32,516 nucleotides of DNA from Actinomycetota bacterium (GCA_963169235.1 CAUJCX010000050.1:1-32516); one strand, 5' to 3'. Shown: positions 3,001-21,931, counted from the first letter of the stretch. The notes: generated from the sequence alone by a model not told the origin. Program-made: numbers and translations.

Positions 3001-6000
3001 CCGCCTGGAGCGCGGTGTCGCCGGGATCCACGGTGTGCATCGACCGCACCGCCCCCACCGTCCCCAGCGTCACCGGCGGCTCGTCCAGCTGGCAGGCCGT
3101 GGCGTCCGTCACCATCACCGCCTCGGCGGGCACCGACGCCCACAGCGGCGTCGCCGGGTACGAGCACCAGACCAGCACGGACGGCGGCGGCACGTGGAGC
3201 GCCACCACCGCAGGGGCCAGCGTCACCATCAGCGACGAGGGCGAGGCCGTCGTCCGCGCCCGCACCGTCGACAACGCCGGCAACACGTCGGCCTGGAGCA
3301 CGGTCGGCGCGGGCTCCACCGCCCGCATCAACCGGTCGCTGCCGTCGGCGCCGACGGTCACCGGCGGCTCGGCGCTGTGGACGGGGGCGGACGCCATGAC
3401 GGTGACGGCGTCGGGATCGACCGGCGGCGTGGGCGGCATCGCCGGCTACCGGTACTCCACCAGCACCGACGGGGGCACCACCTGGTCGGCGCCCCTCGCC
3501 GGGGACAGCGTCACCGTGAGCACCCCGGGCGAGACCCTGGTGCGCTTCCTGGCCTACGACACCACGAACGCGGTGAGCGCGTGGAGCCCCGACCACTCCG
3601 GCGCGGGCGGGGCCGGCGGCACCGTGCGCCTGGGCGACCCCACGCTCGGCCCCACGCGGCCGGCATCCCACGTCTCGGGCGGGGGAACCACCCTGCGCGG
3701 CATCACCGACACCGCGATCGCCCGGGACACCACGCACAACGGGTACCTGGTGGTGGCGACGGCCCGCTGGAACGCGAGCAACGAGGTGGAGGTGTGGGGC
3801 CGCCTCACCAACGGGGTCGGCGGATGGATGGCGGAGCCCTTCCGCATCAGCACCATGGGCCCCGCGGGCAACCCCGCGTTCGAGGCCCGCGGACCGGCCG
3901 TCGTCTACAACCCCGACGCCAGCGAGTACCTGGTGGTGTGGTACGGCGACACCGACGCGGGCGGCCTGGCCGACAACGAGTTCGAGGTGTACGCGCAGCG
4001 CGTCCGCACCGACGGCGTCCTGCAGGGCACGCCCCAGCGCATCAGCCACATGGGCCCGGACGGCAACGCCGCGTTCGACGCGTGGGACCCCAGCGTGGCG
4101 TACAACCGCGCCACCCAGCAGTACCTGGTGGCCTGGAGCGGTGACACCCGCACCGGCGGCCTGGTCGACAACGAGCTCGAGATCTTCGCCACCCGCCTGA
4201 CGGACACGTTGGCGCCCATAGGCACGCAGGACCAGCGCATCAGCAGCATGGGCCCCGACGGCGACCCGTCGTTCGACGCGCAGCGCCCCGCCGCCGCAGG
4301 CAACCCGGTCACGGGCGAGTTCATGGTCACGTGGAGCGGCGACGACGACCGCGGTACCCAGGTGGACGGCGAGACCGAGATCTTCCTGCAGCGCCTGGCG
4401 TCGAACGGCACGCAGGCGGGCACGGACGACGCGCGCATCAGCCACATGGGCACCGACGGGTCCACCGAGGCCGGCGCGGACGACCCCGCCATCGCCGTGG
4501 ACGAGACGGACGGCAGCGCCCAGGTGGTCTGGAGCGGCAGCCCCGGCACCGGCACGATGGCGGCGGGCGAGCGCGAGGTCTTCGGCCAGCACGTCTCGTC
4601 GACGGGTGCCGAGACCGGCGCCGACGACGCCCGTCTCAGCACCATGGGTCCGGACGGCGACGCGCGCTTCTCGGCGGCGTCCCCCGGGGTCGCGTGGGAG
4701 CCGAACCTCCGCCAGTACCTGGTGCTCTGGACGGGCACCACCGACGCGCCAGGCATCTCGGACCGCAAGACCGAGATCTACGCGCAGCGCATGCGGGTCG
4801 ACGGCACCGAGATCGGCGCGGACGCGCGCATCTCGTACATGGGCCCCGACGACAACCCCACGTACGGGGCGCACGACGCCGCCGTCGCCGGGGGCGTGGG
4901 CCGGCCGTCGTTCCTGATGACGTGGGTGGGCGCCGACACGTCGTCCGGGCAGACGTCGCCGTCGTTCGAGGCGCACACCCGCCTCCTGGCGATGGACACC
5001 ACCGGCCCCACCGGGCCCACGCTCACCGGCGGCGGGGACTGGGTCGACGCGCCATCGGTCACCGTGACCGCGTCCGGTTCGGCCGACGCCGAGTCGGGCG
5101 TGCTGAGGTACGAGTGGATCACCAGCACGGACAGCATCTCCTGGTCGGACATCACGCGCGCGAGCACCGTCACCGTCACGGACGAGGGCGAGACCGTCGT
5201 GGCGTTCCGGGCCGCCAACGGCTACGGCGACGCGGGCGATTGGGCCACCACCGTCGTCCGCATCGACCGCGGTACGCCCACCGTGCCGGTGCTCGCCGGC
5301 GGGTCGGCGGCGTGGCGCCCGGGCGACGTGACGGTGACCGGAACCTCCACCTCCATCTCCCCCGTGACGTACTGGCACCGGACGTCCACGGACGGCGGTG
5401 GCACCTGGTCGGCGCCGGTCGCGGGCGGCTCCGTCACGGTGGGCACCGAGGGTGAGACCCTCGTCCAGATGCGGGCGGTCAACGCGGTCGGCGCCGAGTC
5501 GGCGTGGTCGGCGTCCGCCCCCGTGCGGATCGACCGCACCGCTCCCACCGGCGTCGTGGCGACGGGCGGTTCCGCCGCGTGGCAGAACGTCGCGGGCGTG
5601 ACGGTGGCCGCGTCCGGCGCCTCCGACGCGGGCGGCGCGGGCCTGTCCGGCTATCAGCGTCGCACCAGCACCGACGGCGGCACCACCTGGTCGGCTGCGA
5701 GCGCGGGCGCGTCCCTCACCGTCACGGCCGCGGGCACCACCCACGTGCAGTTCCGCGCCGTGGACGGGGCCGGCAACACGTCCGCGTGGCGCCCGTCCGT
5801 CGGCAGCGCTGCGGCCACCGTCCGCATCGACCGCGGCGCGCCGTCCGCCCCGACGGGCCTCTCGGGCCCGTCCGCGACGAAGGACGCCCCGGGGCTCGCG
5901 TGGACGGCCACCGCGGGGGTCGCGTCGTACGTCGTCACCCGCGACGGCACCGACGTCGGCACGGCGACCGGCACCACGTTCACCGACGCACCCAGGCCCG

Positions 6001-8198
6001 CCGACGGCACGTACGCGTACCGCGTCGTCGGCGTGAGCCCCACCGGCATCCGCGGCACGCCGTCCGCCGCCGTCACCGTGGTGGTGGACACCACCCCGCC
6101 CCCTGCCGTGCCGGCCGCGTCGCTCACGGGGGGGTCGCCGACGCCCACCAACGCGGCGTCGGTCACGGTGGCCACGTCCGCCGCGGCACCGTCCGGCGGC
6201 GGCATGATGCAGCACCGCTCCAGCAGCGACGGTGGCGCCACGTGGACAGCTGCGGCGCCGGGCACGTCGGCGTCGGTCACCGCGGAGGGCACCACCAGCG
6301 TGCAGTTCCGCGCCGTGGACGCCGCGGGCAACGCCTCCGCCTGGGGACCGGAGCCCGGCACCGACGCCGCGACCGTGGTCATCGACCGCACGGCCCCCGC
6401 CGCGCCGACGGGCGTGGCCTCGTCCCACCCGGTCACCGACGCCCCGCACGTGCGCTGGGACCCCGTCGCGGACGCCGCGTCGTACCGCCTCACCCGCGAC
6501 GGCGTACAGATCGCGTCGGGGACGGCCGCGGCCTACACCGACGCGGCGCTGCCGGGCGGGGGCGACTACGTGTACCGCGTGGCCGCCGTCGACGCCGCGG
6601 GCAACGTGTCGCCCTGGTCGGCTGCGGTGACGGTGACGTACGACCCCGTCGACGTGACACCCCCCGACACCCGCATCACGCGGGGACCGGGCGCGTTCGT
6701 GACCACCCCGACCCCCTCCGTGGAGTTCGCCGCCACCGAGGCGGCCCGGTTCGAGTGCCGCCTCGACGACGGTCCGTGGACGGCGTGCACGTCGCCCGCG
6801 ACGGCGCCGTCGCTGGCCGACGGCCCGCATACGTTCGACGTGCGCGCCATCGACGCCGCCGGCAACGTGGACGCCAGCCCGGTGCACCGCGCGTTCACCG
6901 TCGACACCGTGGCACCGGAGGCGCCGACGCTGACGGCCACGGCCGACGCCGCGGTGGCCACCGGCGGCGGCGGGCGGGTGTCGCTGACGACCACCGCCCC
7001 GGCCGACGCTGCCCGGGTGGAGGTGACGTCGGGGGCCCGCGTCGTGCACTCCGGCGCGGCCGGCACCGTCACCGACGCCGGGCTCGCCGACGGCGCCCGC
7101 TACGAGTACGCCGCCGTCGCCGTGGACGCGGCCGGTAACCGTTCGACCGTGGCCACCGCCGCGGCGGACACGCCCGACCGCACGGCCCCCGCCACGCCCG
7201 CCGCCCCGACCGGTGGCGGCAGCCCGATGGCCGTCGCGTGGTCCCCCGTGGCGGACGCGGCCGGCTACGTGGTGCTGAAGGACGGCGTCGCGCAGGGCGC
7301 GCCCTCCCCCGCCACGTCGTTCCTCGACCCCGCGCTCACCGACGCGCAGGCCCCGACGGTGCCCGCCGGCATCGTGGCCAGCACCACCGCCGACGGCGGG
7401 GTGGCGCTGACGTGGGCGGCCGCAACCGACGCCGGTGGCTCGGCCACGTACGCCGTGGCCGCCGAGGACGCGGCGGGCAACCGCAGCGCCCCGTCCCCCG
7501 GAGCGACGCTGTCGGCGACCACGGGCGTCGGGACGTACCGCGTGATGGCCGACGGGGCCCCGGTCGCCGACGTGGCCGGCACGTCCCACACCGTCGCCGG
7601 GCTGGCCCCGGGCGCATCCCACTCGCTGCAGGTGGTGGCGATCGACCGGGCCGGCAACGCGTCGGCGGCGTCCCCCGCCATCGTGATCACGATTCCCGCG
7701 TCCTCCGCGTCCCCCGGCGGGATGGCGCTGACCGCCGACCGCCTGTTCGTGCGGCCGGGTGCACAGGTGACGCTGACCGCGGGCGCCCCGTCGGGCCTGC
7801 CGGTCACGTGGACGGTGCCCGGGTCCGCCGCGGCTACCGGCACGCGCACGCGGGCCCGGTTCGCGAAGTCCGGGCGCTACGTGGTGACGGCCGTGGCGAC
7901 GCTGCCGGACGGCCAGACGATCACCGCGCTGGCCCAGATCACCGTCGACGGCACGCCGCCGAGCGTGGTGGTGCGCCGCCGCGGCCGCATCGCGCTCGTC
8001 ACCGCCACCGACCCGGGTTCCGGCATCGCCACGCTGGTGTGGCGCAACGGGCCGGGACGCGTCCGGGCCGTCACCCGCCGGGGCGTGCGCCTGGTGCCCG
8101 GCGTGAACCGCCTGGCCGTGACCGCCACCGACCGGTCGGGCAACGCCCGCACCGTGCGGGTGCGCATCGTGCTGCCCGCCCCCGGCGTGCGCCGGTAG
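1..8198 (+). CDS. Giant secreted Ig-like/FG-GAP repeat surface protein, 5' end missing
   Basis: The reading frame is open from the first complete codon (position 3) and begins inside an Ig-like repeat, so the true start lies upstream of the window. About 2,730 residues are visible. Order of modules: Ig-like repeats of about 90 residues (1-1000); seven FG-GAP motifs of the DVNGDGxxD type (1116-2380); a fibronectin-like unit (about 2455-2760); three Ig-like repeats (2770-3640); a second propeller of RISxMGPDG repeats (about 3650-4990); then alternating Ig-like and FnIII-like units with a two-cysteine module near 6655-6910; and a PKD/Ig-like C-terminus. FG-GAP repeats fold into Ca-binding propellers as in integrin alpha chains. 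The C-terminus ends in APGVRR, with no LPXTG motif or membrane helix, so attachment to the cell is unclear. The likely role is adhesion or matrix binding (inference). It converges on the other giant gene 154 bases away. Confidence 0.9.
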   Translation, partial: NSGSTWSAATTGATATITAEATTLVRFRAVDADGNTSAWTTPDGDATAKIDRTGPTGPTVSGGSASWQSVASITLTATDGSDAGAGLDHREYQTSTNGGTSWTSATSGSSVTVSAQGETLVRFRTVDSVGNASAWSTVAAGSTARIDRTAPGAPSVTGGSSSWQAAASLDITASGSDPLSGILRYESQTSTNGGSTWSATTTGATAAVSAQGTTIVRFRAVDNAGNTSVWSVPGAGATAKLDRTAPTVSMSGGSWSWWQAPHSLTVTATGSDAHSGSASLEYRTSTDNGATWTAATSGASVTIGDLGDTYVQFRATDAVGNVGTWSSTYTQDRVRVTTQPGVDIATANVRLTVQGRDEGAYLGNGGVSSAGDVNNDGLNDLIVGASDDAVAGDSVGTAYVVFGRSTPGTVDLASLGTGGFRIVGARSDGDFGRDVAGIGDVNGDGFDDVAVAAALTNGPVPNAGATYVVFGKADGADVTTASEGAWGYRIDAPPLPYAYNSGNSVAGAGDVNGDGTPDVLMGVAATNAPGRAGAGAAWVVYGKTTSSTISLASLTLSQGYRVIGGGTEAHLGQTLTSLGDVNGDGVPDMAVSASDADSSQSQSGAAYVVYGQTNELEIDVTSLGARGRAITPGATAENAETVAAPGDVTGDGVPDLLVGATLSDPYGRTNAGSVFVVSGAGTGPVDLSDPDGVALRINGAASNSAIGYSLNASPGDVDNDGINDMLLGQSQGHRGRDWGGTLYVVTGRATTGTVDLRQTHPGTIRIDGPSASALFGTDAAIVPDVTGDGIVDIAAVDNSEAAGRASAGNVRVFSLYDVGALPAVTTRPATDVTSQSALLAGTVDPNGSATRFWFEYGATTAYGSATPAQDLDSDTEVAAVDAGITGLAYGGTVHFRVVAENAEGRRAYGDDLSFTVPDTIGPSVPTVTGGSATWQSVASVTLTASGSTDGGSGVDHYEHQTSTDGGTTWGATTAGASVAVTGEGETVARFRAVDADGNASAWSAVSPGSTVCIDRTAPTVPSVTGGSSSWQAVASVTITASAGTDAHSGVAGYEHQTSTDGGGTWSATTAGASVTISDEGEAVVRARTVDNAGNTSAWSTVGAGSTARINRSLPSAPTVTGGSALWTGADAMTVTASGSTGGVGGIAGYRYSTSTDGGTTWSAPLAGDSVTVSTPGETLVRFLAYDTTNAVSAWSPDHSGAGGAGGTVRLGDPTLGPTRPASHVSGGGTTLRGITDTAIARDTTHNGYLVVATARWNASNEVEVWGRLTNGVGGWMAEPFRISTMGPAGNPAFEARGPAVVYNPDASEYLVVWYGDTDAGGLADNEFEVYAQRVRTDGVLQGTPQRISHMGPDGNAAFDAWDPSVAYNRATQQYLVAWSGDTRTGGLVDNELEIFATRLTDTLAPIGTQDQRISSMGPDGDPSFDAQRPAAAGNPVTGEFMVTWSGDDDRGTQVDGETEIFLQRLASNGTQAGTDDARISHMGTDGSTEAGADDPAIAVDETDGSAQVVWSGSPGTGTMAAGEREVFGQHVSSTGAETGADDARLSTMGPDGDARFSAASPGVAWEPNLRQYLVLWTGTTDAPGISDRKTEIYAQRMRVDGTEIGADARISYMGPDDNPTYGAHDAAVAGGVGRPSFLMTWVGADTSSGQTSPSFEAHTRLLAMDTTGPTGPTLTGGGDWVDAPSVTVTASGSADAESGVLRYEWITSTDSISWSDITRASTVTVTDEGETVVAFRAANGYGDAGDWATTVVRIDRGTPTVPVLAGGSAAWRPGDVTVTGTSTSISPVTYWHRTSTDGGGTWSAPVAGGSVTVGTEGETLVQMRAVNAVGAESAWSASAPVRIDRTAPTGVVATGGSAAWQNVAGVTVAASGASDAGGAGLSGYQRRTSTDGGTTWSAASAGASLTVTAAGTTHVQFRAVDGAGNTSAWRPSVGSAAATVRIDRGAPSAPTGLSGPSATKDAPGLAWTATAGVASYVVTRDGTDVGTATGTTFTDAPRPADGTYAYRVVGVSPTGIRGTPSAAVTVVVDTTPPPAVPAASLTGGSPTPTNAASVTVATSAAAPSGGGMMQHRSSSDGGATWTAAAPGTSASVTAEGTTSVQFRAVDAAGNASAWGPEPGTDAATVVIDRTAPAAPTGVASSHPVTDAPHVRWDPVADAASYRLTRDGVQIASGTAAAYTDAALPGGGDYVYRVAAVDAAGNVSPWSAAVTVTYDPVDVTPPDTRITRGPGAFVTTPTPSVEFAATEAARFECRLDDGPWTACTSPATAPSLADGPHTFDVRAIDAAGNVDASPVHRAFTVDTVAPEAPTLTATADAAVATGGGGRVSLTTTAPADAARVEVTSGARVVHSGAAGTVTDAGLADGARYEYAAVAVDAAGNRSTVATAAADTPDRTAPATPAAPTGGGSPMAVAWSPVADAAGYVVLKDGVAQGAPSPATSFLDPALTDAQAPTVPAGIVASTTADGGVALTWAAATDAGGSATYAVAAEDAAGNRSAPSPGATLSATTGVGTYRVMADGAPVADVAGTSHTVAGLAPGASHSLQVVAIDRAGNASAASPAIVITIPASSASPGGMALTADRLFVRPGAQVTLTAGAPSGLPVTWTVPGSAAATGTRTRARFAKSGRYVVTAVATLPDGQTITALAQITVDGTPPSVVVRRRGRIALVTATDPGSGIATLVWRNGPGRVRAVTRRGVRLVPGVNRLAVTATDRSGNARTVRVRIVLPAPGVRR
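1116..2380 (+). repeat. Seven FG-GAP / integrin-alpha-like Ca-binding repeats within the first giant gene
   Basis: Seven DxxxDGxxD loops (DVNNDGLND, DVNGDGFDD, DVNGDGTPD, DVNGDGVPD, DVTGDGVPD, DVDNDGIND, DVTGDGIVD) start at 1116, 1320, 1530, 1740, 1941, 2148 and 2352. The spacing is a regular 201-210 bases. Each is followed by a hydrophobic strand of the LIVGA type and, further on, by a YVVFG-type strand. Seven units match the closed seven-bladed propeller known for FG-GAP proteins, and each Asp/Asn loop is a candidate calcium site. Confidence 0.88.
3650..4990 (+). repeat. Second predicted seven-blade propeller built from RISxMGPDG repeats
   Basis: Six full repeats of 65-66 residues begin with RIS/RLS-x-MGPDG at 3843, 4038, 4236, 4434, 4632 and 4827. 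Each continues with a YLVxWSG-type strand and an E(I/V)(F/Y)xQR-type strand. A seventh, more diverged unit (about 3700-3840, with GYLVVATARW and EVEVWGRL) comes first. The regular spacing and WSG strands suggest a seven-bladed beta-propeller. I do not recognise the family by name; no Asp-box or FG-GAP motif is present. Confidence 0.7.
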
Positions 8199-8352: not shown

Positions 8353-11300
8353 CTACCGCGGTGAGCCCGCGGGGCCCTCCGGGTCGGACGCGTCCGGCGC
8401 GAGATCGCGGGCGTCGGCGAGGCGGCGGGCGTCCACGTGCCCCACCCCGCCCGGGGTCAGCACCTTCACCCATGTGCGCCGGCCGCGGCGGCGGCGGCCC
8501 ACCGACCACAGGGGACCCGCGTCGTGGCGCAGGAGGAACGCGACGTCACCCCGGCGGTCGCGGCGCGTGCGCACCACCAGCCGGTGCCGGGGGTCGACGT
8601 CGGCGACCAGGTACGGCAGCACGCGGCGGCGACGCCACCACACCAGCATCGCCCCCGTCAGCACCGACGCACCGGACAGGGACAGCGCGGCGGTGGGGAC
8701 GTCGATGTCGCGCACCGCCACCAGCGCGGACAGCGGCGCCTTGACGCTGATCTCGACGGGGGCCGAGCGCGGCGACGGCGGCACGGCCACGCGCGGCGGG
8801 CTCAGCCGGCGCGCAAGGCCCGTACCCAGCCGCCGCGACGCGATCTGCTGGGGCGTCAGCGCCGGGCCGGGCGTCACGACGCCGGGTGCGGCGGGAGCCC
8901 CGGCGGGCTGCGGACGTGACGGCCGGTCCGCCGCGGGACGGGGGTCGTCGCCCGCACCGGGCTCCACCGACGCCGTACCGTCCGGGGCCGCGCGGGACGG
9001 CGCCGGGCCGCGGGCGGTGTCGGTCTGGGGGCCCGAGGGGGCGGGCGTGGCCGGCGCGGGCGGCGCGGCCGCCGGCGCCTCAGGACCGGAACCCGGCGCG
9101 TCCGGCGGCGCCGCGCCGGGGGACGGGTCCGCGCCCGCAGGCGGCGGGGCCGCCGAGACGGTCACCACGAACGTCACCGTCGTCGACAGCGCCGGGGATC
9201 CGTCGTCGGTCACGGTGACCGTGATGACGTTGCGGCCGATGTCGGTGGTCTTGGGGCTCCACAGCACGTTGCCCGTGGGGCCGATGCGTACGCCGGGGGG
9301 TCCCGCGACCCGCCGCGTCAGCGTGTTGGCCGGCAGGTCGCCGTCGGACGCGCGCACCGTGATCGCCAGGTCGTCTCCCACCCGGGCCGTGGTGTCGGGG
9401 ATGGCCGCCACCACGGGCGCCGAGTTCACCTCGGTCACGGTCACCTGCACGGGGGTCTCGGCCGGCATCGCCGGCACGCCGTCGTCGGTGGCGATCACGG
9501 CGAACGTGTACGTGCCGGGCCCCTGGGCCTCGGTGGGCGTCCACGACATCTCACCCGTGACGGGGTCGACGGTCGCGCCGGCGGGGGCCCCGCGCAGCGA
9601 GAAGCGCACCGTGTCGCCGTTGGGGTCACGGGCCGTGGCCCGGTGCGAGGCGAGCGCCAGCTCCGGGACGGTGGCGGCGGCGACCGCGTCGATCACGGGG
9701 GCGTTGTTGCCGCCGGTCACGGTCCACGTGCCCGTGCGGGTCGCCGAGGCGCCCGCGTCGTCGCGCACCGTGATGGTGGTCTGGTACGGGCTCCCCTGGG
9801 CCGCCCCGCGCGCGATGGTGCCGCTGATGAGGCCGGTGGCGGGGTCGATCGACAGGCCGTCCGGCAGCCCGGTGGCCGACCACGTGAACGTGTTGTCGGG
9901 GATGTCCGGGTCGGTCGCCGACGGCGTCAGGCTCACCGTGTCGCCCTCGCCGTTGGTCTGCGCCGTCAGCGCGGTCAGCACAGGCGGGCGGTTCACCTCG
10001 TCCACGGTGATCGTCACGGTCTGATGCGCGCTGGCCGCGGGCACCGCGTCGTCGGTGGCGACCACCACGAACGTGTACGTGCCCGGTCCCTGCGCCTCGG
10101 TGGGCGTCCACTGGGCCGTGCCGGCGGCCGGGTCGCCGGTGAAGCCGGCGGGCGCACCGACCACGCTGTACGTGATGGTCCGCGCGGGGGTCGGGCTGGT
10201 GGCGTGGGCGGTGAACGCGAGCGTCCGCTCCTCGTCCACCCGCATGTCGGGGATGGCGTCCAGCACCGGGGGGTTCGACGCCGGCGTCAGCGTGATGGCG
10301 AGGGTGTCGGCATCGCTCTTGGCACCGCCCGCGCCCGCGGCCCCCTGGTCGTTGGTGTCGACGGCGATCGACGCGGAGCCCGAGAAGCCGCTCTGGGCCA
10401 GGAACGTCATGCCGTCGAGCGCGGCGCGCACGTCGGCCTGCGCACCCGTGAACTCCAGCGCGGCGTCCAGCGACCCGTCGCCCGTCGCGAACGACAGGCC
10501 CGTCGTGCGCGCCAGGGTCAGCGTGCCGTGCGTCGCGGTGAGCCGCACGCGCAGCGGCGACGTCCCCGCGTCGACGTCGTCCACGCCCATCAGCGTGCCG
10601 CGCGCCGCCGACAGCGTCACCGCCGACCCGCTCGACGCCGTGATCGGCGCGGGCATGCGGTTCACGGGGGCGTCGTTGACGGCGGTGAGCGTGATCCCCA
10701 CCGTGTCGGTCGCGGTCTTGGCCCCGCCCGTGCCGGTGTTGCCCTCGTCGTCGGTGGTGATGGTGACGCTCGCGGCGCCCGCGACGTCGGCGGTGGGCGT
10801 GAACTGCAGTCCGTCGAGCGCCGCGTTGACCGACGCCAGCGTGCCGCGGAACGTCATCGACACGTCCAGCGACCCGTCGCCCGTGGTGAACACGAGGCCC
10901 GCGGTGCCGCCGAGCGTCAGCGTGCCGTTGGCGGCCGTCAGCGTCACCTTCACCGGAGACGATCCGGCGTCGCTGTCGGCCACGGCGATGCGGGTGCCCC
11001 CGGCCGCCGAGAACGTCACGTTGGTGTCCTCGGCCACGGTGCGGTCGGCCGGCACCGTGTGCACCGGCGCGCTGTTCACCGACGTCACCTCGATGTCGAA
11101 CGTGTCGTTGTCGCTCAGCGCGCCGCCGGCGCCCGTGTTGCCCTGATCGTCGACGGTCATCGTGGCCGTCACCGTGCCGCCGTACCCGGCCGGCGGCGTG
11201 TAGACGGCACCGTTCAGCGCGGCGTTCACCGCGGTCTGCGCGCCGGTGAACGTCATGGTCGCGTCGGCCGTGCCGTCGCCCGCCGTGAACGTCAGGCCCG

Positions 11301-14300
11301 TGATGTCGGCCAGCGTCAGCGTGCCCGCGGTGACCGTCAGCGTCGCCTCGAGGGTGCCCGCCCCCACGTCGGGGTCGCGGGTCGACAGCGCGGTCGCCGT
11401 ACCGGACGCGAACGTGAGGGTGTCGTCGTCGGTGATCGCCTGGTCGGCCGGCACGGTGTTCACGGGCGGGTCGTTGCCGGCGGCGACGGTGCGCGCCGCC
11501 GAGAACTCGGACGTGGTGTCGGTGGCGGCGATGCGCGTGGCCGTGGCCGTCACCACCGTCCCGGGCGAGACGGTGAGCGGCACCGTGAAGTCGACGCTGC
11601 CGCCCCCGGGATGGGTGACGCTCGCGGTCGCCACGAGGGTCTCGCCCTCCCCGCTGCCCGACGGGTCGGCCCCGCGCGGGTTGCGGAAGAACTCCAGCCG
11701 GTACGTCCCGGCGGGCACGTCCAGCGCCGCGACGGCGTCGACGGTGCCGCCGTGCTCCAGCAGGGGCTGCAGCACCGGCCGGTTCAGCAGGCCGTTGCCT
11801 CCCGAGTCGGCGTCCAGCGCGTCGTTGGCGGTGACGCCGTCGAACGGCCCGCCAGGGCCCGTCGTCGCCGCGTTCAGGTCGATGCCGAGGCCACCGTTGA
11901 GGTACATGTGGTTGCCCAGCACGCCGACGCCGCTCGCCGCGCCGTCGACGGCGACGCCCGGCCCCCCGTTGTGCGCCACGACGTTGGCGTCGCTGGTCTT
12001 GTTGCTGCCGATGGCGGCGCCGTTGGCCCCGACCCACACCCCGGGCCCGGTGTTGGGGAGGGCCGCGGTGCCCGCCGCGTCCGCCCCGATGGTGTTGCCC
12101 GCCACCGTCGCGCCGGACGCGCCCGCGCGCAGGGCCACGCCCGCGCCCGTGTTGCCCGAGATGACGTTGCCTTCGCCCGCGTTGGGTCCGCCGATGCCGG
12201 CCCCGGCGGCCGCCACGTCGACGCCGCCGCCGGCGTTGGGCACGGCCGCGGTACCGCCCGGGTTGGTGCCGATGCGGTTGCCCACGATGTCCACCCTGGT
12301 GCCGCCCGCCGCCACCAGCACGCCGGCGCCGCCGTTGCCGCTGATCACGTTGCCGTACGCGGCCGGGGTGTCGCCGATGACGACCGCGTCCGCCGCGACG
12401 CGCACGCCCGCGGCGGCGTTGGGGTTGGCCGCACCGCTCGCCCCCAGGCCGATCCAGTTGGCCTCCAGCGTCGTGGACGGGGCCCCCGCGCGCACGCCGG
12501 CGACGTCGGCGAAGCCCCCGACGGCGAGGCCGGCGACGGTGGTCCCGGTGCCACTGGCCACGTCGATGCCCGGGGCACCGGCGGCGGAGGCGCCGTCGAG
12601 GACGATGCGGGGCACCGCCGAGCCGGCGGGCTGGGTGCGCCCGTCCAGCGTGACGGGGTCCGTGATGGCCGGCAGCGGAGCCACGGGGCGGATGACGAAG
12701 CGGCCGGAGGCGACGTCGCGACCGGCGTCGGCGTCGGGGATGCGGAACGCCGACGTCTGCACGCCCACCAGGGCGTTGGCGTTGAGGAGGAACTGCCGCA
12801 GCGAGCCCTGCCCCGTGCGGCCCGTGTCGTAGCGCTCCACCTCGCCGCTGTAGTCGGTGCCGTTGTAGAGGTGCGACACGTACAGGTAGCGCCCGTCGAA
12901 CGCCGCGCCGCGGGCCCCGTCCGGGTCGGTGCCCACCCCGGCCGCGCCCAGGTTCATCACGGTCCACGAACCGGCGGCGCCGAACGTCGCGGTGGTGTCG
13001 TAGCGCGCCACCCGGGACGCGGCCCCGGTGGACGAGCTGTCCTGGCCCAGGTACACGTAGCGCCCGTCGAACGTGGCGGTGCGGAAGCCGACGGCGTTCG
13101 CGTCGACGGCCGTGAGGTCGAACGTCGACCACGACGCGGCGTCGGCGAACCCGCCGGCGGCCTGGGCGTCGAACCGCAGCACCAGCCCGGAGGCCCCGGT
13201 GGTGCTGTCGTACGGGGCGAAGTACACGTAGCGGCCGTCGCCGGCCAGCGCGGTGTACCCCTGCGGCCCCGTGCCGAGGCCGTGCGCCGCCGGCTCGAAC
13301 GCCGTCCACGAGAACGCCGCGCCGAACGCCTGGCGCGTGTCGTACGCCATCACCTCTCCGGCGCCGCCCGACCTGCCGTTGGCCGCAAAGATCATGTACG
13401 GCCCCGCCTTGATCACGTCGCTGAAGCCGCGGGCGTCGCTGCCCACCCCGTTCGCCGACGGGTCGTACGTGCCCCAGCTGGCCGCGTTGTCGAACGCGCC
13501 GCGGGTGTCGAGCCGCAGCACCTCGCCGGACGCGCCGGTGCCGTTGTCCAGAGGCGAGAAGTAGACGTACTGCCCGTCGAACGCCATGCCCGAGAAGCCG
13601 TCGGCGTCGGCGCCGACGCCGTTCGCGCCGGGATCGAACGCCAGCCACGACGACGCCGCTCCGAACGGCAGCGTCGTGTCGTAGCGCAGCACCTCGCCGT
13701 GGGCCGCGGTGCCGTTGTACAGGGGCGCGAAGTAGACGTAGCGACCGTCGAACAGCGCGGCCTGATACCCGTCCGGGTCGGAGCCCACGCCGTGGTCGCC
13801 CGGGTCGAACGTGCTCCACGACGCGACGTCGCCGAACGCGGCGCGGGTGTCGTAGCGGCGCACCTCCCCGTGCATGCCGGACGTGCGCCGCGACGGCGCG
13901 AAGTAGACGTAGCGGCCGTCGGTGGCGGCGCCCGCGTAGCCCACCGGGTCGACGCCGAGCCCCAGCGCGTTGGGGTCGATCGACGCCCAGGAGGCCGGGT
14001 CGGTGAACTTGGGCGGCGTCGTGGCGTCGCGCGTGTGGGTGACGGAGGCGAACGAGAACGCCTGGACGATGCCGCCGGCGTTGCCGCCCGACACCACCAC
14101 CTTCTGCACGTGCTCGGACGCGGGCAGCAGGGGGAAGCCGTCGGCCACGTCCGCCCGCATGCCTCCGGGCAGCGGGCCGGCCGCCGCCGTCGGCGTCGCG
14201 GACGTGTCGCCCGCGGCCACGCGCATCGCGCCGGCCGACGCGTACGTCTGGTCGGCCCACGCGTCCCCGCGCGCGAAGCCGCCGCGGAAGCCCTGGGACG

Positions 14301-16479
14301 GCAGCACCGAGCGGGAGTCGGTGGCCACCCAGTACGTGCCGTCGCCGTTCACGGTCACCGACCACGCGCCGCCGGCGTCGGTGCGCGTGGACGCCTCCAC
14401 CGGGTCGCCGGCGTCCGGCACCCCGTCGCCCTGGTCGCGGAAGACCCACACCGCGGCGCCGGACGCCGCCACCGCGTCGGTCAGGACGCCGTCCCCGTTG
14501 ACGTCCTCGCGCACCGTGCCCGACACGGTGCGGGCCGCCATCGGCGTGACGACCGCGGAGGGCTGGCTGGTGGCGCCCAGCGGGCGGGAGGCGCCGCTCG
14601 GTGCCGCGGTGAGCGTGGCGACCACGGGCGCGTCGCCGGGCGCGTCCAGGCGATATGCGCGCTCCAGGGCGGCGCCGGTGCTGGTGAGGGGGAAGGTCGC
14701 GACCGGTGCGGTGGTGGCGGTGGGCGTCCCGGCGCCCGCCACGGACGAGAACTCCACCACGTACTCGCCCGCGGGCACCTGGGCCGCAAGCGTGGCGGCG
14801 ACCCCGGCGCGGGTGGGCCGGGCCGACGTGATGGCGGGGGTCGCGGGTGCCCCGGCCCCGGTGGCGTCCCCGCGCGGGCCCGCGTCCATCAGGGTGCCGC
14901 CGCCCACGATCGCGTTGCCGATCACCGTGTTCTCGGCCGCCGTCGTGCCGGTGACGCGCACCGCCGTGCCCGACGCGCCGGTGGCCACGAGGTTGCCGTC
15001 CACGGGGGTGACGCCGCCGATGGTGGCGCCGGTCGCCCCGTCGATGGCGACGCTGGCCCGCAGCCCGTCCGTCGGCGCCTGGCCGCCCACCGGCACGCCC
15101 AGCACCGAGCACGTCACGGCGGTGCCGGTGGCCGGGGCGGCGATGCTCACGGGGGTGGCGACGCGGTCGACGGCCAGCGCGTGCAGGCGCACGTCGGCCG
15201 CGCTCACGCGCAGGCCCACCGGGCCCGCAGCGCGGCCGTCGATCACGATGCTGGGCGCCGGCCCGCCCGCGGCGAGGCCGCAGCGCGCACCGTCCTGCAC
15301 GCTGCCGTCGAGGCTCATCGGCGACGCGATGGACGGCAGGGGGCTGCGGGGACGGATGGTCCACGTGGCGGAGGGATCACCGCGGAAGCCGGGGTCCGAC
15401 CGCGGGATCGCGAACACCACGGCGCCCACGCGCAGGTCGGCGTTGGCCTCCTCGATGGCCGCGCGCAGCGTGCACTCGCGGGCGCCGCCGGGGGTGACGC
15501 CTCCGGTGGCGCACACGCCGTCGCCGGGGTCGGCGTCCGCCCCGTCGCCGGTGCTGTTAACCGTGACGGCCAGCGCGATGCGGCTGACAGTCGACGGCAC
15601 CGTGACGGGCTGCGGCGCCGCGACCGGCTCCGGCGCCGGGTCGGCGACCGCGGGGTCGGCGGGCGTGACGGGCGGGTCGGACGGGCCGGTCGTGGTGGTC
15701 GTTGGCGGTGGGACGCCGGGGTCCGGCTCCGTCGGGGACGAGGAGGGCGCGGGCGCCGGCGTGGTGGACGCGGGGGCGGGGGTCGTGGCCGCCGGACCGG
15801 GCGCCGGGGTGGTGGAGGCGGGACCCGGGGTCGTGACGGCCGGGGTAGGCGCCGTGGCGGTGGGTTCCGGGCCGGGGTCGAGCGGGGTGGCCGCGGGGTC
15901 CGGCTCCACCGCGGGGCCGGGCGTGTGGATGCCGATGTCCCGCATCACCACGTCGCCCGCCATGGGGAACGCCACCGTCCCGACGCCCCGCAGCATCACC
16001 GGCGCGTCGGCCTGGAGCCCCGGCGCGCCCATCATCCAGCTGCCGTCCAGCGTCACGTCCGGGGCGAACGCGCGGCCCGCGGCTCCGCCGGTGCCGTCGA
16101 TGATCAGGCGCTCCGTCACGGCCGGGTACGGCGTGCCCGGGGTCAGCCGCACGCCGTCGACGCCGGCCGGGTCGACGGTGCCCCACAGGCCCGGGTCGAC
16201 GGTCACCGTGTCGTCGCCGGGGCGGTCGTTCGCGTCGGCGATCGCGGCCCGCAGCGTGCACTCGGGCGTGCCATCCACGGCCACGAGGCCGGTGTCGCAG
16301 ACGCCGTCCGCCGGGTCGGCGTCCGGCAGGTCACCGGGGCTGTTGACCGTGATCGGTGCCGGGGCCGCCGAGGCTGTCGGCGTGGAGGTCTGTCCGGACG
16401 CGCCGGGGGCCCAGGCGACCGCGAGCGCCAGCAACGCCGGCGCCCACCGCGCCCACGCCGTGCGGCGGCGGGGCGTCAC
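8353..16479 (-). CDS. Giant membrane-anchored CSLREA / beta-propeller / cadherin-like adhesin
   Basis: The GTG start at 16479 overlaps the upstream TGA in a GTGA; the frame stays open further upstream but that stretch lies over the kinase-like gene. Length is 2,708 residues. A signal peptide (about 1-30, hydrophobic core LLALAVAWAPGASG) precedes CSLREA module 1 (about 45-90), a Pro/Thr-rich mucin-like linker (about 190-300), CSLREA module 2 (about 302-356), an SdrD-B/prealbumin-like unit (about 648-730), a seven-blade propeller (825-1222), beta-helix repeats with GNVISGN motifs (about 1330-1540), three cadherin-like repeats (about 1668-2065) and four He_PIG-type Ig repeats (about 2067-2440). 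A Pro/Ala-rich linker, a membrane helix (about 2593-2616, ending WWRRRR) and a basic cytoplasmic tail of about 90 residues complete it. It probably works as a surface adhesin or sensor; its place behind a GGDEF gene suggests c-di-GMP-linked control (inference). Confidence 0.9.
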   Translation of the reverse strand: MTPRRRTAWARWAPALLALAVAWAPGASGQTSTPTASAAPAPITVNSPGDLPDADPADGVCDTGLVAVDGTPECTLRAAIADANDRPGDDTVTVDPGLWGTVDPAGVDGVRLTPGTPYPAVTERLIIDGTGGAAGRAFAPDVTLDGSWMMGAPGLQADAPVMLRGVGTVAFPMAGDVVMRDIGIHTPGPAVEPDPAATPLDPGPEPTATAPTPAVTTPGPASTTPAPGPAATTPAPASTTPAPAPSSSPTEPDPGVPPPTTTTTGPSDPPVTPADPAVADPAPEPVAAPQPVTVPSTVSRIALAVTVNSTGDGADADPGDGVCATGGVTPGGARECTLRAAIEEANADLRVGAVVFAIPRSDPGFRGDPSATWTIRPRSPLPSIASPMSLDGSVQDGARCGLAAGGPAPSIVIDGRAAGPVGLRVSAADVRLHALAVDRVATPVSIAAPATGTAVTCSVLGVPVGGQAPTDGLRASVAIDGATGATIGGVTPVDGNLVATGASGTAVRVTGTTAAENTVIGNAIVGGGTLMDAGPRGDATGAGAPATPAITSARPTRAGVAATLAAQVPAGEYVVEFSSVAGAGTPTATTAPVATFPLTSTGAALERAYRLDAPGDAPVVATLTAAPSGASRPLGATSQPSAVVTPMAARTVSGTVREDVNGDGVLTDAVAASGAAVWVFRDQGDGVPDAGDPVEASTRTDAGGAWSVTVNGDGTYWVATDSRSVLPSQGFRGGFARGDAWADQTYASAGAMRVAAGDTSATPTAAAGPLPGGMRADVADGFPLLPASEHVQKVVVSGGNAGGIVQAFSFASVTHTRDATTPPKFTDPASWASIDPNALGLGVDPVGYAGAATDGRYVYFAPSRRTSGMHGEVRRYDTRAAFGDVASWSTFDPGDHGVGSDPDGYQAALFDGRYVYFAPLYNGTAAHGEVLRYDTTLPFGAASSWLAFDPGANGVGADADGFSGMAFDGQYVYFSPLDNGTGASGEVLRLDTRGAFDNAASWGTYDPSANGVGSDARGFSDVIKAGPYMIFAANGRSGGAGEVMAYDTRQAFGAAFSWTAFEPAAHGLGTGPQGYTALAGDGRYVYFAPYDSTTGASGLVLRFDAQAAGGFADAASWSTFDLTAVDANAVGFRTATFDGRYVYLGQDSSSTGAASRVARYDTTATFGAAGSWTVMNLGAAGVGTDPDGARGAAFDGRYLYVSHLYNGTDYSGEVERYDTGRTGQGSLRQFLLNANALVGVQTSAFRIPDADAGRDVASGRFVIRPVAPLPAITDPVTLDGRTQPAGSAVPRIVLDGASAAGAPGIDVASGTGTTVAGLAVGGFADVAGVRAGAPSTTLEANWIGLGASGAANPNAAAGVRVAADAVVIGDTPAAYGNVISGNGGAGVLVAAGGTRVDIVGNRIGTNPGGTAAVPNAGGGVDVAAAGAGIGGPNAGEGNVISGNTGAGVALRAGASGATVAGNTIGADAAGTAALPNTGPGVWVGANGAAIGSNKTSDANVVAHNGGPGVAVDGAASGVGVLGNHMYLNGGLGIDLNAATTGPGGPFDGVTANDALDADSGGNGLLNRPVLQPLLEHGGTVDAVAALDVPAGTYRLEFFRNPRGADPSGSGEGETLVATASVTHPGGGSVDFTVPLTVSPGTVVTATATRIAATDTTSEFSAARTVAAGNDPPVNTVPADQAITDDDTLTFASGTATALSTRDPDVGAGTLEATLTVTAGTLTLADITGLTFTAGDGTADATMTFTGAQTAVNAALNGAVYTPPAGYGGTVTATMTVDDQGNTGAGGALSDNDTFDIEVTSVNSAPVHTVPADRTVAEDTNVTFSAAGGTRIAVADSDAGSSPVKVTLTAANGTLTLGGTAGLVFTTGDGSLDVSMTFRGTLASVNAALDGLQFTPTADVAGAASVTITTDDEGNTGTGGAKTATDTVGITLTAVNDAPVNRMPAPITASSGSAVTLSAARGTLMGVDDVDAGTSPLRVRLTATHGTLTLARTTGLSFATGDGSLDAALEFTGAQADVRAALDGMTFLAQSGFSGSASIAVDTNDQGAAGAGGAKSDADTLAITLTPASNPPVLDAIPDMRVDEERTLAFTAHATSPTPARTITYSVVGAPAGFTGDPAAGTAQWTPTEAQGPGTYTFVVVATDDAVPAASAHQTVTITVDEVNRPPVLTALTAQTNGEGDTVSLTPSATDPDIPDNTFTWSATGLPDGLSIDPATGLISGTIARGAAQGSPYQTTITVRDDAGASATRTGTWTVTGGNNAPVIDAVAAATVPELALASHRATARDPNGDTVRFSLRGAPAGATVDPVTGEMSWTPTEAQGPGTYTFAVIATDDGVPAMPAETPVQVTVTEVNSAPVVAAIPDTTARVGDDLAITVRASDGDLPANTLTRRVAGPPGVRIGPTGNVLWSPKTTDIGRNVITVTVTDDGSPALSTTVTFVVTVSAAPPPAGADPSPGAAPPDAPGSGPEAPAAAPPAPATPAPSGPQTDTARGPAPSRAAPDGTASVEPGAGDDPRPAADRPSRPQPAGAPAAPGVVTPGPALTPQQIASRRLGTGLARRLSPPRVAVPPSPRSAPVEISVKAPLSALVAVRDIDVPTAALSLSGASVLTGAMLVWWRRRRVLPYLVADVDPRHRLVVRTRRDRRGDVAFLLRHDAGPLWSVGRRRRGRRTWVKVLTPGGVGHVDARRLADARDLAPDASDPEGPAGSPR
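9481..10111 (-). repeat. Near-identical DNA blocks in He_PIG repeats 1 and 3
   Basis: Two 64-base blocks, 9481-9544 and 10048-10111, differ at about six positions. Both encode a TPTEAQGPGTYTF strand plus the following ATDD segment of an Ig-like (He_PIG-type) repeat. The copies lie 567 bases apart with a less similar repeat between them, which suggests duplication of a two-domain unit or gene conversion. Confidence 0.75.
10285..11475 (-). repeat. Three tandem cadherin-like repeats in the membrane-anchored giant
   Basis: Three units of about 130 residues begin at about 11472 (NDPPVNTVPAD), 11080 (NSAPVHTVPAD) and 10680 (NDAPVNRMPAP). Each contains a GTLTL strand, a GLxFxxGDGxxD segment, a FxGxxxxVxAAL helix-like segment and a closing DDQGNTGxGG loop. 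This layout is common in very large bacterial adhesins. Confidence 0.8.
12815..14007 (-). repeat. Seven ~57-residue propeller repeats in the membrane-anchored giant
   Basis: Seven consecutive units start with F(G/T/A)xxxSW near 14007, 13836, 13665, 13494, 13326, 13152 and 12980. Typical content is SWxxFDP, then GVGxDPxG, then FDGRYVYFAP, then GEVxRYDT. The count and strand pattern fit a seven-bladed beta-propeller. Unit 4 has a divergent strand (GPYMIFAAN) in place of GRYVYFAP, and unit 6 is shortened around the GVG segment. Confidence 0.8.
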
Positions 16480-17759
16480 GCGGCGCGGGCCCGCGCGGGC
16501 GCCGCGGGACGGCCGGGGATGCGCACGACGGTGGCGGCGCGGGGCGCGGGGCCGATCTCCATCGTCACGCCCAGGGCCTCCCCCACCAGCAGCGCGGCCG
16601 TGATGCGGGCGCCCACGGCGGCGTCGTCCCACTGCCCGGCGTGCACCACCCGGCGCAGCGCATCGTCGGCGGGCGTGCCGTCGTGCGACACCCACAGCTC
16701 CGGGCCCTGCGCACCGTGCACCATGGCGATCTCGGCCGTGCACGCCCCGCGGTCGCACGCATCGTCCAGCAGCGATGCCAGCAGCTCGCGCAGCGCCCGG
16801 GGATCGGTGAGCGCGTCCAGGTCGGCGCGGTCGACGCGCACCGCGAGCCCGCCCTGCGTGTACGCCGACGCGGCCTGGTCGACGACGGGCTCCAGCGGCA
16901 CGGTCGCGAAGCGCTGGCCGATGTCGTCGTCCAGCACGGCCAGCAGCCGGCCCAGCGCGTCGAGGCGCCGCACCGCGTCGTCCGGGTGGGCGTCGGGGCG
17001 CACGATCGCGGCCCGCACGTCGGCCAGGGCGGCCCTGGTCACCAGGCCGCGCCGCGAGCGGTCGGCGGTGAGGCGCGTGGACGTGATGGCGCGGTGCAGG
17101 TCGGTCTTGGAGTGCCGCGTCAGCGCCATGTAGATGCCGACGACGCACAGGGGCAACAGGAACGCCACCACGAACGTCGCGAGCGCCCCCAGGCTCGACG
17201 TGCGCTCGTCCATGGAGGCGAGCCGCTCGATCACGACGGTGCGGCGGTCGGTCATCTCCTTGCGGGCCGCGTCGAACGACGATGCCAGGCGCTCCATGCG
17301 GGCCGCCGACGGCTTCCCGTCCTGGAGCGTGTCGAACGCCGCGCCCGCGGCGGTGCGGAACCGGCGCTCGGTGGCCGTGGGGTCCTGGGTCACGCTCCAG
17401 GTCGCATCGAGGGCTGCCAGCGCACCGCGCGCGTCCACCAGCGAGGCCTTGATGGCGGTGGTCGAATCGGTCGCGTACGTCCGGTCGACGTTCATCAGCA
17501 CGTGGGCCATCAGCAACTGCGACCGCGCCAGCGTCGCCGCGCGCAGGCCCTCGTCCACGGCGTGGAGCTCGTTGGCCTGTGCGGCGACGTCGCGCGACCG
17601 CTGTCCCAGCGAGAACACGCTCGCCGCCACGAGCGCGATCAGCAGGCCGCATGCGGCGGCCAGCACGAGGGCCCGCCGCCGTTGCGCGTGCTGTGGCCGG
17701 GCGGAGCGCGCGTGCGTCCAGCCGCGCAGCCCCTCGCGAGGGATCCAGCGCTCCATCAC
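16476..17759 (-). CDS. Two-helix membrane sensor with a degenerate histidine-kinase ATPase domain
   Basis: The protein is 427 residues from the GTG at 17759, which forms GTGA with the upstream stop; the ATG at 17756 is an equally good start. A membrane helix at about 30-52 and another at about 190-213 flank a mostly helical, charged extracytoplasmic domain of about 135 residues, as in four-helix-bundle sensors. The cytoplasmic part ends in an HATPase_c-like fold: an N-box-like segment RELLASLLDDACDRG (about 324-338) and a G2-like segment VGARITAALLVGEALGV (about 382-398). The usual N-box Asn is replaced by Asp and the GxGxG glycines are missing. No HE(L)RTP-type phospho-acceptor box is visible. 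It may be a pseudokinase relaying a signal to its operon partners, or a kinase too divergent for me to recognise. Confidence 0.8.
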   Translation of the reverse strand: MMERWIPREGLRGWTHARSARPQHAQRRRALVLAAACGLLIALVAASVFSLGQRSRDVAAQANELHAVDEGLRAATLARSQLLMAHVLMNVDRTYATDSTTAIKASLVDARGALAALDATWSVTQDPTATERRFRTAAGAAFDTLQDGKPSAARMERLASSFDAARKEMTDRRTVVIERLASMDERTSSLGALATFVVAFLLPLCVVGIYMALTRHSKTDLHRAITSTRLTADRSRRGLVTRAALADVRAAIVRPDAHPDDAVRRLDALGRLLAVLDDDIGQRFATVPLEPVVDQAASAYTQGGLAVRVDRADLDALTDPRALRELLASLLDDACDRGACTAEIAMVHGAQGPELWVSHDGTPADDALRRVVHAGQWDDAAVGARITAALLVGEALGVTMEIGPAPRAATVVRIPGRPAAPARARAA

Positions 17760-19381
17760 GGCACGTCACCCCCGCCCACCACGGCCTCGGCGGCGTGCGC
17801 CTCGCGCAGGTCGGACGCCAGCGAGAAGCCGCTGCGCGACAGCCGCTTGGCGCGGTACATGGCGTCGTCGGCCAGCCGCATGATCTGCTCGGGCGACGTG
17901 CTGCCCGTGCCCCAGGCGATGCCGACGCTGGTGCCGATGGGCACCTCGATGTCCTCCAGCGGCACGGGCCGGCTCAGGGTGAGGCACGCGCGCTTGGCCA
18001 CGGCGACGGCGTCTCCCAGCTCGGCTGGCCGGGTCAGCAGCACCACGAACTCGTCGCCCCCGAGGCGTGCCACGACGTCGCCGGCCCGCACGATCTCGCG
18101 CAGGCGCGTCGCGACGCGTCGCAGCACCTCGTCGCCGGCGTCGTGGCCGTGGGTGTCGTTGATCTGCTTGAAGCCGTTGAGGTCCAGGTACAACAGGCCG
18201 AACGGGGGGCCGCCACGCGCCGCGCGGGTCGACACGTCGGCCAGGCGCGCCAGCAGCTGCGCGCGGTTGGCCAGGCCGGTCATGGCGTCGTGCGTCGCGT
18301 CGTACTCCAGCCGCCGCGACCAGCGGGTGAGCTCGGCGAAGCGGCGGGCGGTGCCCCACGCCGCGCCGGCCTGCGCGATCAGCAGCGACAGCGCCTCCAC
18401 CCGGCTGGCGTCACGCGGCAGCTCGTCGGCGCTCCACGCACGCACGGCCAGCGGGTCCCCGTCGATGGTCCACGCCGGCACCACCACGCCGCCCGCGTAG
18501 CCCGTGAGGTGAAGCCACTGGTCCTCGGCGGCGTCGCCGCGGGTGCCCAGCACCACCGGCAGCGCCCGTGCGATCGCCTCGTCCAGGCCCATCGCGGGGT
18601 CCGGCTCGGGCGACGTCCCCTGACCGATGCCGTGCACGGGCATCCACACCCCGCCGGCCACGCGGCGGCACACGTCGACACGCACGAAACCCAGCGTGGT
18701 CGCCGCGCTGACGGTGGCGGCCATGACGCCGTCCGGCTCGGGCACGGCCGACAGCCGCGTCGCATGCCCGGCGACGGACTGCAGCTCGGCCGCGTGGCCG
18801 CGGGCGGCCATCAGCGTGTCGTGGGCCCGCTCCAGGTCGTCGCGCATGCGGGCCGCCACGTAGCCCGCGGGAAGCGCGAACGCCGCCACGGCGGCCAGCT
18901 GCTGCAGCCCCAGCCGCAGCATCTCGTCGTCGCCGCCGCCCATGCGCATGCGCAGGGAGATATACGCCAGGCTCACCACCAGCCATGCGACGGCCGCCGC
19001 GACGGGGCTCAGCGCCGCGGCGTCCAGCACGGGCATCAGCAGCGCCACCCACGCCAGCGGCGTGGCCGTCGGGTCCAGCAGCACGGCGCCGATCAGCGCC
19101 AGCGCGCCGTCCACCAGCGCCTGGCCCACCCGCACCGCCGCCGGCTCGGCGCGGCGCGGGGGCCGCACCACGCGGAAGGCGTTCCACGCGACGTTGAGGG
19201 CCGCCATCACCAGCACCACCACCACCGCGCCCCGGGTCGCGACCACGTCGCCGCCCGCCGGGTTCATGGAGATCAGGGTCGCGAAGACCAGCGACAAGAT
19301 CACCCGCACCAGGCGCAGGCCTCGTGCGAGCGTCTCGTCGCCTACGTGGAAGCTCTCGCGATGTAGGCGGCGGTGCGGCAA
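17756..19381 (-). CDS. Membrane GAF-GGDEF diguanylate cyclase
   Basis: Diguanylate cyclases condense two GTP into the second messenger c-di-GMP. The 541-residue protein has about six N-terminal membrane segments (about 22-178), a GAF-like region (about 205-345) and a C-terminal GGDEF domain (about 360-520). The catalytic motif GGDEF is intact at 441-445, and the product-inhibition site RAGD (432-435) lies exactly five residues ahead of it, as in allosterically inhibited family members. The DAMTGLANR start of the domain and the LDLNGFKQIND strand are also typical. The TTG start is chosen because GAGG lies four bases upstream and no better start precedes the first membrane segment; GTG codons inside that segment would be poor. 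It is the first gene of the operon with the kinase-like sensor and the giant adhesin. Confidence 0.93.
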   Translation of the reverse strand: MPHRRLHRESFHVGDETLARGLRLVRVILSLVFATLISMNPAGGDVVATRGAVVVVLVMAALNVAWNAFRVVRPPRRAEPAAVRVGQALVDGALALIGAVLLDPTATPLAWVALLMPVLDAAALSPVAAAVAWLVVSLAYISLRMRMGGGDDEMLRLGLQQLAAVAAFALPAGYVAARMRDDLERAHDTLMAARGHAAELQSVAGHATRLSAVPEPDGVMAATVSAATTLGFVRVDVCRRVAGGVWMPVHGIGQGTSPEPDPAMGLDEAIARALPVVLGTRGDAAEDQWLHLTGYAGGVVVPAWTIDGDPLAVRAWSADELPRDASRVEALSLLIAQAGAAWGTARRFAELTRWSRRLEYDATHDAMTGLANRAQLLARLADVSTRAARGGPPFGLLYLDLNGFKQINDTHGHDAGDEVLRRVATRLREIVRAGDVVARLGGDEFVVLLTRPAELGDAVAVAKRACLTLSRPVPLEDIEVPIGTSVGIAWGTGSTSPEQIMRLADDAMYRAKRLSRSGFSLASDLREAHAAEAVVGGGDVP

Positions 19382-19450: not shown

Positions 19451-19477
19451 GTATCGGCATCCCGAAGGCCGATTTGA
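19451..19477 (-). promoter_or_regulatory. Candidate sigma-28 (FliA/WhiG-type) promoter of the GGDEF-adhesin operon
   Basis: On the minus strand, TCAA (19477-19474) is followed by exactly 15 bases and GCCGATAC (19458-19451). The established sigma-28 consensus is TAAA-N15-GCCGATAA, so 3 of 4 and 7 of 8 positions match. The -10 box ends 69 bases before the TTG start at 19381. The same bases contain an inverted repeat ATCGGC-N9-GCCGAT (19473-19453), so a repressor or activator operator is an alternative reading. Confidence 0.5.
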
Positions 19478-19854: not shown

Positions 19855-21504
<1,650 letters not shown>

Positions 21505-21560
21505 TCAAGTCCTCTCGTGGAAGTGTGTGCGTCCTTCGCGGTTCCCCTGAAGGGAGGCCG

Positions 21561-21848
21561 TCAGGCCTCGACCTTGGCGAGGATGTCGTGCTCGGACAGG
21601 ATCAGCAGGTCCTCACCGTCGACCTTGATCTCGGTGCCGCCGTACTTGGAGTAGATGACCTCGTCACCCTCCGCGACGTCCAGCGCCACGCGCGCGCCGT
21701 CGACGAAGCGTCCGTCACCTGCCGCCAGCACCTTGCCGCGCTGCGGCTTCTCCTTGGCGGTGTCGGGCAGCACCAGGCCGCTCGCCGTGACCTCTTCCTG
21801 CTCCACGGCCTTCACGATCACGCGGTCGCCCAGCGGCTTAAGCTTCAT
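21561..21848 (-). CDS. groES: 10-kDa co-chaperonin GroES (Hsp10)
   Basis: GroES is the heptameric lid that closes the GroEL chamber. The 95-residue protein begins [13 protein letters not shown], has the mobile loop (TASGLVLPD, about 22-30) that docks on GroEL and the conserved end DILAKVEA. The ATG at 21848 is chosen because GGGAGG lies just upstream and the conserved N-terminus starts there; the frame is open further upstream to about 21911 but would run into the CIRCE operator. It is the first gene of groES-groEL and is preceded by CIRCE at 21905-21931, so repression by HrcA is expected. Confidence 0.98.
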
Positions 21849-21904
21849 GCATCCTCCCGGATGTCCCGGTTCATCGGTTTCGCGGCGGCCTCGGCGGCCG
21901 CCGT

Positions 21905-21931
21905 TTGGCACTCACGCTCATCGAGTGCCAA
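21905..21931. promoter_or_regulatory. CIRCE operator (HrcA binding site) of groES-groEL
   Basis: TTGGCACTC (21905-21913), nine bases, then GAGTGCCAA (21923-21931) form a perfect inverted repeat. The established CIRCE consensus is TTAGCACTC-N9-GAGTGCTAA; here position 3 and its partner have both changed, so symmetry is kept. It lies 57 bases before the groES ATG. Confidence 0.93.

Follow-up and report, generated by a model that had tools for sequence, protein, structure and literature searches.

How might a diguanylate cyclase, a kinase with a broken catalytic domain, and a giant surface protein, encoded one after another in an actinobacterial genome, work together, and which way would a signal run between them? 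The window analyzed here, 32,516 nucleotides long, is the entire contig C50 of its source genome (G000), and it carries the three genes, A, B, and C, consecutively on the minus strand from 19381 to 8353. The features of the locus are as follows:

17756-19381, minus strand: gene A, predicted membrane diguanylate cyclase, TTG start, 541 aa
16476-17759, minus strand: gene B, pseudo-histidine kinase, GTG start, 427 aa
8353-16479, minus strand: gene C, predicted giant exported surface protein, GTG start, 2,708 aa
17756-17759, minus strand: A-B GTGA overlap (A stop TGA at 17758-17756, B start GTG at 17759-17757)
16476-16479, minus strand: B-C GTGA overlap, the B stop lying over the C start GTG at 16479

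The first-pass annotation had described three genes joined by GTGA overlaps, and the open frames and both overlaps are as it claimed. The search for conserved synteny that it had proposed recovered the A-B-C order in two more Thermoleophilia genomes, G015 and G006, from another genus of the family, so that the three genes stand as a conserved unit. The B proteins of both genomes are matched at E-values of 1e-46 to 1e-49. The triad holds despite different flanking genes and a different chromosomal place, with groEL upstream in the window and other housekeeping genes in the relatives. The B-C GTGA overlap is retained in all three triads, and B keeps an open frame in each, at 36% identity across three genomes of two genera. 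By region, dN/dS of the triad genes ranges from 0.24 to 0.53; in the comparison of G015 with G006 it is 0.30 for A, 0.30 for the tail of C, 0.33 for the sensor of B, and 0.53 for the cytoplasmic part of B, where constraint is weaker. The recurrence of the triad at such ratios therefore argues for more than chance.

Triads were found in only three genomes of two genera, genome counts here being based on samples of the class or phylum. The one other genome sampled from the genus of the window gave no match to B. Among named genomes, pattern scans returned nothing for a single-protein query and only the two triad contigs for an alignment query. The G006 triad is divided over two contigs, with an intact copy of C; C of G015 is frameshifted within a repeat (L005, near 16200-16421), either by an assembly error or by a real mutation. 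No description of the A-B-C gene set was found in the literature searched, which is weak evidence of novelty.

The surroundings of the operon in the window are as follows. The groEL gene and a groES-like gene lie directly upstream on the same strand (19855-21911, minus strand), which is ordinary. A second giant repeat protein, with FG-GAP and fn3/Ig-like domains, is encoded convergently with C (3-8198, plus strand); it is truncated by the contig start, and its promoter lies outside the contig. Riboswitches, for c-di-GMP or otherwise, were sought in the window with Rfam, and all matches were at chance level.

Gene A contains a GGDEF domain (PF00990, 144 bits) with the intact GG(D/E)EF motif of diguanylate cyclases, and the GGDEF motif and the RxxD I-site are invariant in the three A orthologs; we thus predict that A is a diguanylate cyclase. 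Of the earlier description as a GAF-GGDEF cyclase, the GGDEF part holds, whereas the GAF-like region is weak (GAF_2, E = 0.002 in two orthologs) and yields no GAF_2 match in the window copy. That description had also overlooked approximately five hydrophobic segments, detected by hydropathy, which precede the GAF-like part and the GGDEF domain. The source genome contains 53 GGDEF matches; A is one of many cyclases and therefore may act only locally or redundantly.

B shares its whole architecture with HisKA/HATPase_c sensor kinases bearing Tar-like sensors and is kin to such a family, but it differs from them in lacking the phosphorylation site and the ATP-binding motifs. Two hydrophobic helices flank approximately 150 residues, giving the layout of a transmembrane helix, a Tar-like four-helix sensor, a second transmembrane helix, and a degenerate DHp/CA part. 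The window copy has no Pfam match, and neither the window nor the G015 copy matches HisKA or HATPase_c, whereas the relatives match clearly. Alignment of the three triad proteins with 28 intact relatives revealed several losses: (i) the H-box, which is SHELRTPL in 28 of 28 relatives, reads LADVRAAI, IDSLRDVI, and IASLREVI in the triads, leaving B without the phospho-acceptor histidine of an active sensor kinase; (ii) approximately 26 other columns of the DHp region are missing; and (iii) among the N, D, and G boxes that mark the ATP-binding domain of an active kinase, the N-box is gone, the G-box is gone wherever the sequence is complete, and the invariant D-box aspartate is replaced by H, Y, or F. 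The sequences indicate loss of the kinase motifs under continuing, partly relaxed selection. The first-pass reading of a two-helix sensor with a broken kinase domain thus proved correct, with both helices seen and the catalytic boxes lost in 3/3 triads.

The structural model of B has a mean pLDDT of 81. Its sensor matches the Tar ligand domain 2asr (Z 15.8, rmsd 2.1, 129 residues), which is to be read as a four-helix bundle and not as a chemoreceptor, since helical bundles easily reach high Z. Its CA domain matches the kinase 1ys3 (PrrB; Z 16.9, rmsd 2.2, 128 residues). DivL of Caulobacter and RetS of Pseudomonas use a kinase fold outside the normal phosphorelay role, and both are among the structural matches of B (the non-canonical kinase DivL at Z 15.5). 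These proteins act on other kinases, whereas B is encoded together with a cyclase and a surface protein.

Elsewhere in the phylum, in a different class, B has homologs that are intact kinases with HisKA and HATPase_c domains; 395 sampled genomes of this class contain more than 100 full-length relatives. To describe their neighborhoods, we used 40 relatives with flanks and four found earlier, and counted downstream genes by one rule (a large, exported, polar protein) for family and control kinases. An exported surface protein lies directly downstream in 39 of 43 B-family kinases versus 2 of 18 control kinases; the former count becomes 41/43 if L140 and L090, where the surface proteins escaped the filter, are included. 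The downstream proteins are Ig-, propeller-, or repeat-rich where read, and the commonest gap between kinase and surface protein is a 4-base overlap. In the window and the two other triads too, an exported surface protein comes directly after a B-type kinase with the four-helix sensor. A same-strand GGDEF gene directly upstream was observed in 3/3 triads versus 0/44 relatives; in 5/44 relatives, the B-type kinase is preceded by a single-domain response regulator. These five form regulator-kinase-surface protein operons, in which the regulator gene is directly adjacent (L138, L139, L142, L146, and L148).

C begins with a signal-like stretch and contains four He_PIG domains of Ig type, four Cadherin_4 domains, a beta-helix, and propeller-like repeats; judging from these domains, it may be an adhesin. 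Its C-terminus consists of a weakly hydrophobic segment, then RRRR, and lastly a basic tail of approximately 90 aa:

8353-8646, minus strand: C-terminal tail of C, after the weak transmembrane segment, with the RRRR stop-transfer and an SH3-like predicted cytoplasmic tail

The earlier claim of a 2,708-residue surface protein stands, and its C-terminal membrane helix is weak: in the window copy the segment falls under the hydropathy cut-off, and a helix is suggested by a clearer one in homologs and by a low-confidence model. The tail is conserved in the orthologs and resembles the tails found on surface proteins that are paired with intact kinases in another class (hhalign probability 87, E 4e-6). 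The SH3-like character of the tail is a suggestion from sequence. An AlphaFold model of the tail (six sequences) reached a mean pLDDT of 46 and was left out of the fold search. Further genomes of the class gave weak matches to the tail (E 3e-4 or worse), which were judged to be chance.

B probably descends from this family of intact kinases paired with surface proteins. The pairing counts, the presence of a same-strand GGDEF gene directly upstream only in the triads, and the likeness of the tails thus suggest that the triad is an altered kinase/surface-protein pair; it looks like one in which kinase activity was lost and a cyclase was added.

The promoter region suggests when the operon is expressed. 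One candidate was predicted upstream of gene A:

19451-19477, minus strand: predicted sigma28 (FliA/WhiG) promoter, TCAA-N15-GCCGATAC

The site stops 70 bases short of the TTG of A. It agrees with the sigma28 (FliA/WhiG) regulon, in which a TAAA-like -35 element and a GCCGATAA-like -10 element stand 14-16 bases apart before the first gene, and the genome has the sigma factor. The -10 region ATGCCGATACG is common to all three triad promoters, and so is an 11-mer including GCCGATA, at 78, 87, and 84 bp; with position ignored, such a shared 11-mer appears in 39 of 2000 shuffles. Both orthologous promoters have weaker -35 elements, TCGA and TGGA, with a spacer of N16. The pattern TCAAN{14,16}GCCGATA occurs at 11 sites in the source genome versus 0 for the reversed pattern, approximately 0.8 sites being expected by chance as estimated from base composition. 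These sites precede cheR, cheY, motA, fliJ, cheW, and a pilin-like gene, and several secreted proteins are also preceded by sigma28-type sites. The source genome encodes flagellin, a FliA/WhiG sigma factor (281 bits), and RsiG (PF22802) at G000:C35:258803-259012, the last at 68 bits with a single motif ERDVSMQRRLLHGRID. RsiG has no match in 14 control genomes or in G015, which is 84% complete. Judging from these sites, A-B-C appears to be expressed along with the motility genes.

Rubrobacter has an established switch in which RsiG binds WhiG together with c-di-GMP, and DGC/PDE genes stand behind 5 of its 12 mapped WhiG promoters (PMC8325347). Clusters of flagellar genes occur commonly in Thermoleophilia (PMC10746217). 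The source genome resembles Rubrobacter in its FliA/WhiG sigma factor, its single-motif RsiG, and a sigma28-type promoter before a DGC gene. It differs in that a pseudokinase and a giant surface protein share the predicted promoter with the DGC, and in that the predicted regulon takes in flagellar and chemotaxis genes.

Two other sites of this type were observed in the source genome. On contig C3, TCGA-N16-GCCGATAC, the form of the G015 triad promoter, stands before a gene for a 662-aa protein with a weak GGDEF match (L081:5071-7056, plus strand). On contig C39, a sigma28-type site precedes the gene for a secreted FG-GAP/He_PIG protein, and after a gap of 62 bases comes a gene for a membrane diguanylate cyclase (MGGDEF):

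L094:5160-7418 and L094:3674-5098, minus strand: C39 unit, FG-GAP/He_PIG protein and cyclase

The C39 unit was left uncounted as an independent case, there being a GC-rich hairpin between its two genes.

We propose, at a probability of roughly 35%, that the operon is a surface-contact signaling unit of the flagellated state, in which C would act through the dead-kinase relay B on A, and c-di-GMP would close sigma28. Sigma28 (FliA/WhiG) would transcribe A-B-C along with the flagellar and chemotaxis genes. After export, C would stay anchored in the membrane through its C-terminal helix, its short tail facing inward. B, formerly the kinase partner of such a surface protein, would serve without phosphorylation as a relay across the membrane, or as a scaffold, and inform A of the state of C. 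When C is bound or put under tension, B would be altered and the diguanylate cyclase activity of A would increase; rising c-di-GMP would arm RsiG, which would bind sigma28, and with the flagellar genes and the operon itself turned off, swimming cells would become attached cells. Gene order and its conservation, the cyclase motifs, the lost kinase motifs, the kinship of B, the promoter motif, and the presence of WhiG and RsiG are legible in the DNA; to these we add, as what we infer, contacts of C with B and of B with A, the direction of the signal, adhesion by C, and an action of RsiG on the A-B-C promoter.

The first-pass annotation had control run from the inside out, with c-di-GMP from A, acting via B or another receptor, governing whether C is displayed, anchored, or released. 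The cyclase and the surface protein are indeed co-encoded and conserved, and the LapA/LapD/LapG system of Proteobacteria and the Dvh system likewise link a c-di-GMP gene to a giant adhesin-like protein. Giant adhesins are under c-di-GMP control in Proteobacteria (PMC6890996), as are surface proteins in C. difficile, a Gram-positive-type cell, where the control acts on sortase-anchored proteins and a protease (PMC4591827). C, however, has no C-terminal LPxTG for sortase anchoring, with one internal LPNTG far from the C-terminus, and it ends in a predicted single membrane helix and a cytoplasmic tail, unlike the Lap system. The operon's own c-di-GMP gene is a cyclase, predicted only to synthesize c-di-GMP. 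As the first-pass annotation had itself noted, the parts are not those of LapA/LapD/LapG: domains of a LapD-type receptor or a LapG-type protease were matched in none of the three proteins. In addition, the operon has no protease or outer-membrane retention gene, no c-di-GMP-binding domain was matched in B or C, and the relatives of B are sensor kinases and not c-di-GMP receptors. We consider control of C by c-di-GMP unlikely; the ancestry of B, the sigma28 promoter, and RsiG point at least as much to a signal passing from the surface protein to c-di-GMP.

Two other explanations dispense with a signal from C to A. B might modulate another, intact histidine kinase as a heterodimer partner of the RetS or DivL kind, with A independent of B and C and merely co-expressed in motile cells. 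The DHp-like and CA folds kept in the model of B, and the occurrence of the modulatory kinases DivL and RetS among its structural matches, would suit such a role, which is nevertheless improbable given the loss of the H-box and so many DHp columns; a second B-family kinase was not found in the source genome, though other kinases exist there. Alternatively, sigma28-regulon genes might simply be grouped by ordinary co-transcription, with B a relic in decay, C a coat or stalk without an active role, and no signaling link among them. The higher dN/dS of the cytoplasmic part of B, the lack of B in the sister genome, and the sigma28-type sites before unrelated secreted proteins agree with this explanation, which we find doubtful: B stays open in three genomes at its low identity while its sensor and the tail of C are clearly constrained, the B-C overlap is exact in 3/3, and A-B-C recurs as a unit at another chromosomal place.

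The proposed surface-contact unit is assembled from parts of known kinds in a combination new to the literature searched. The family of kinases paired with giant surface proteins, of which no description was found in that literature, is a separate finding. Still more tentatively than for the operon itself, we suggest that Actinomycetota may possess widespread, undescribed surface-contact receptors, in which giant exported proteins are co-translated with, and signal via, their own four-helix-sensor kinases; in Thermoleophilia, loss of the kinase activity and gain of a cyclase would have switched the output from phosphotransfer to c-di-GMP, inside a sigma28-RsiG loop deciding between swimming and attachment. 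If so, a two-component receptor has become a c-di-GMP receptor through loss of catalysis and acquisition of a cyclase, flagellated Actinomycetota could have a concrete, testable route to sense surfaces and stop swimming, and the kinase and giant surface-protein pairs offer a large set of bacterial surface receptors for study.

Three of the surface proteins with a C-type tail show further features. L090, L091, and L130 each have, 3-6 kb upstream, a GGDEF gene encoded on the opposite strand. Past the SH3-like part, these proteins carry a further conserved cytoplasmic region of approximately 150 residues (L090:3876-4706, minus strand; L091:17816-18643, plus strand; L130:10762-11589, plus strand), which has no Pfam name and ends in (R/K)EG.
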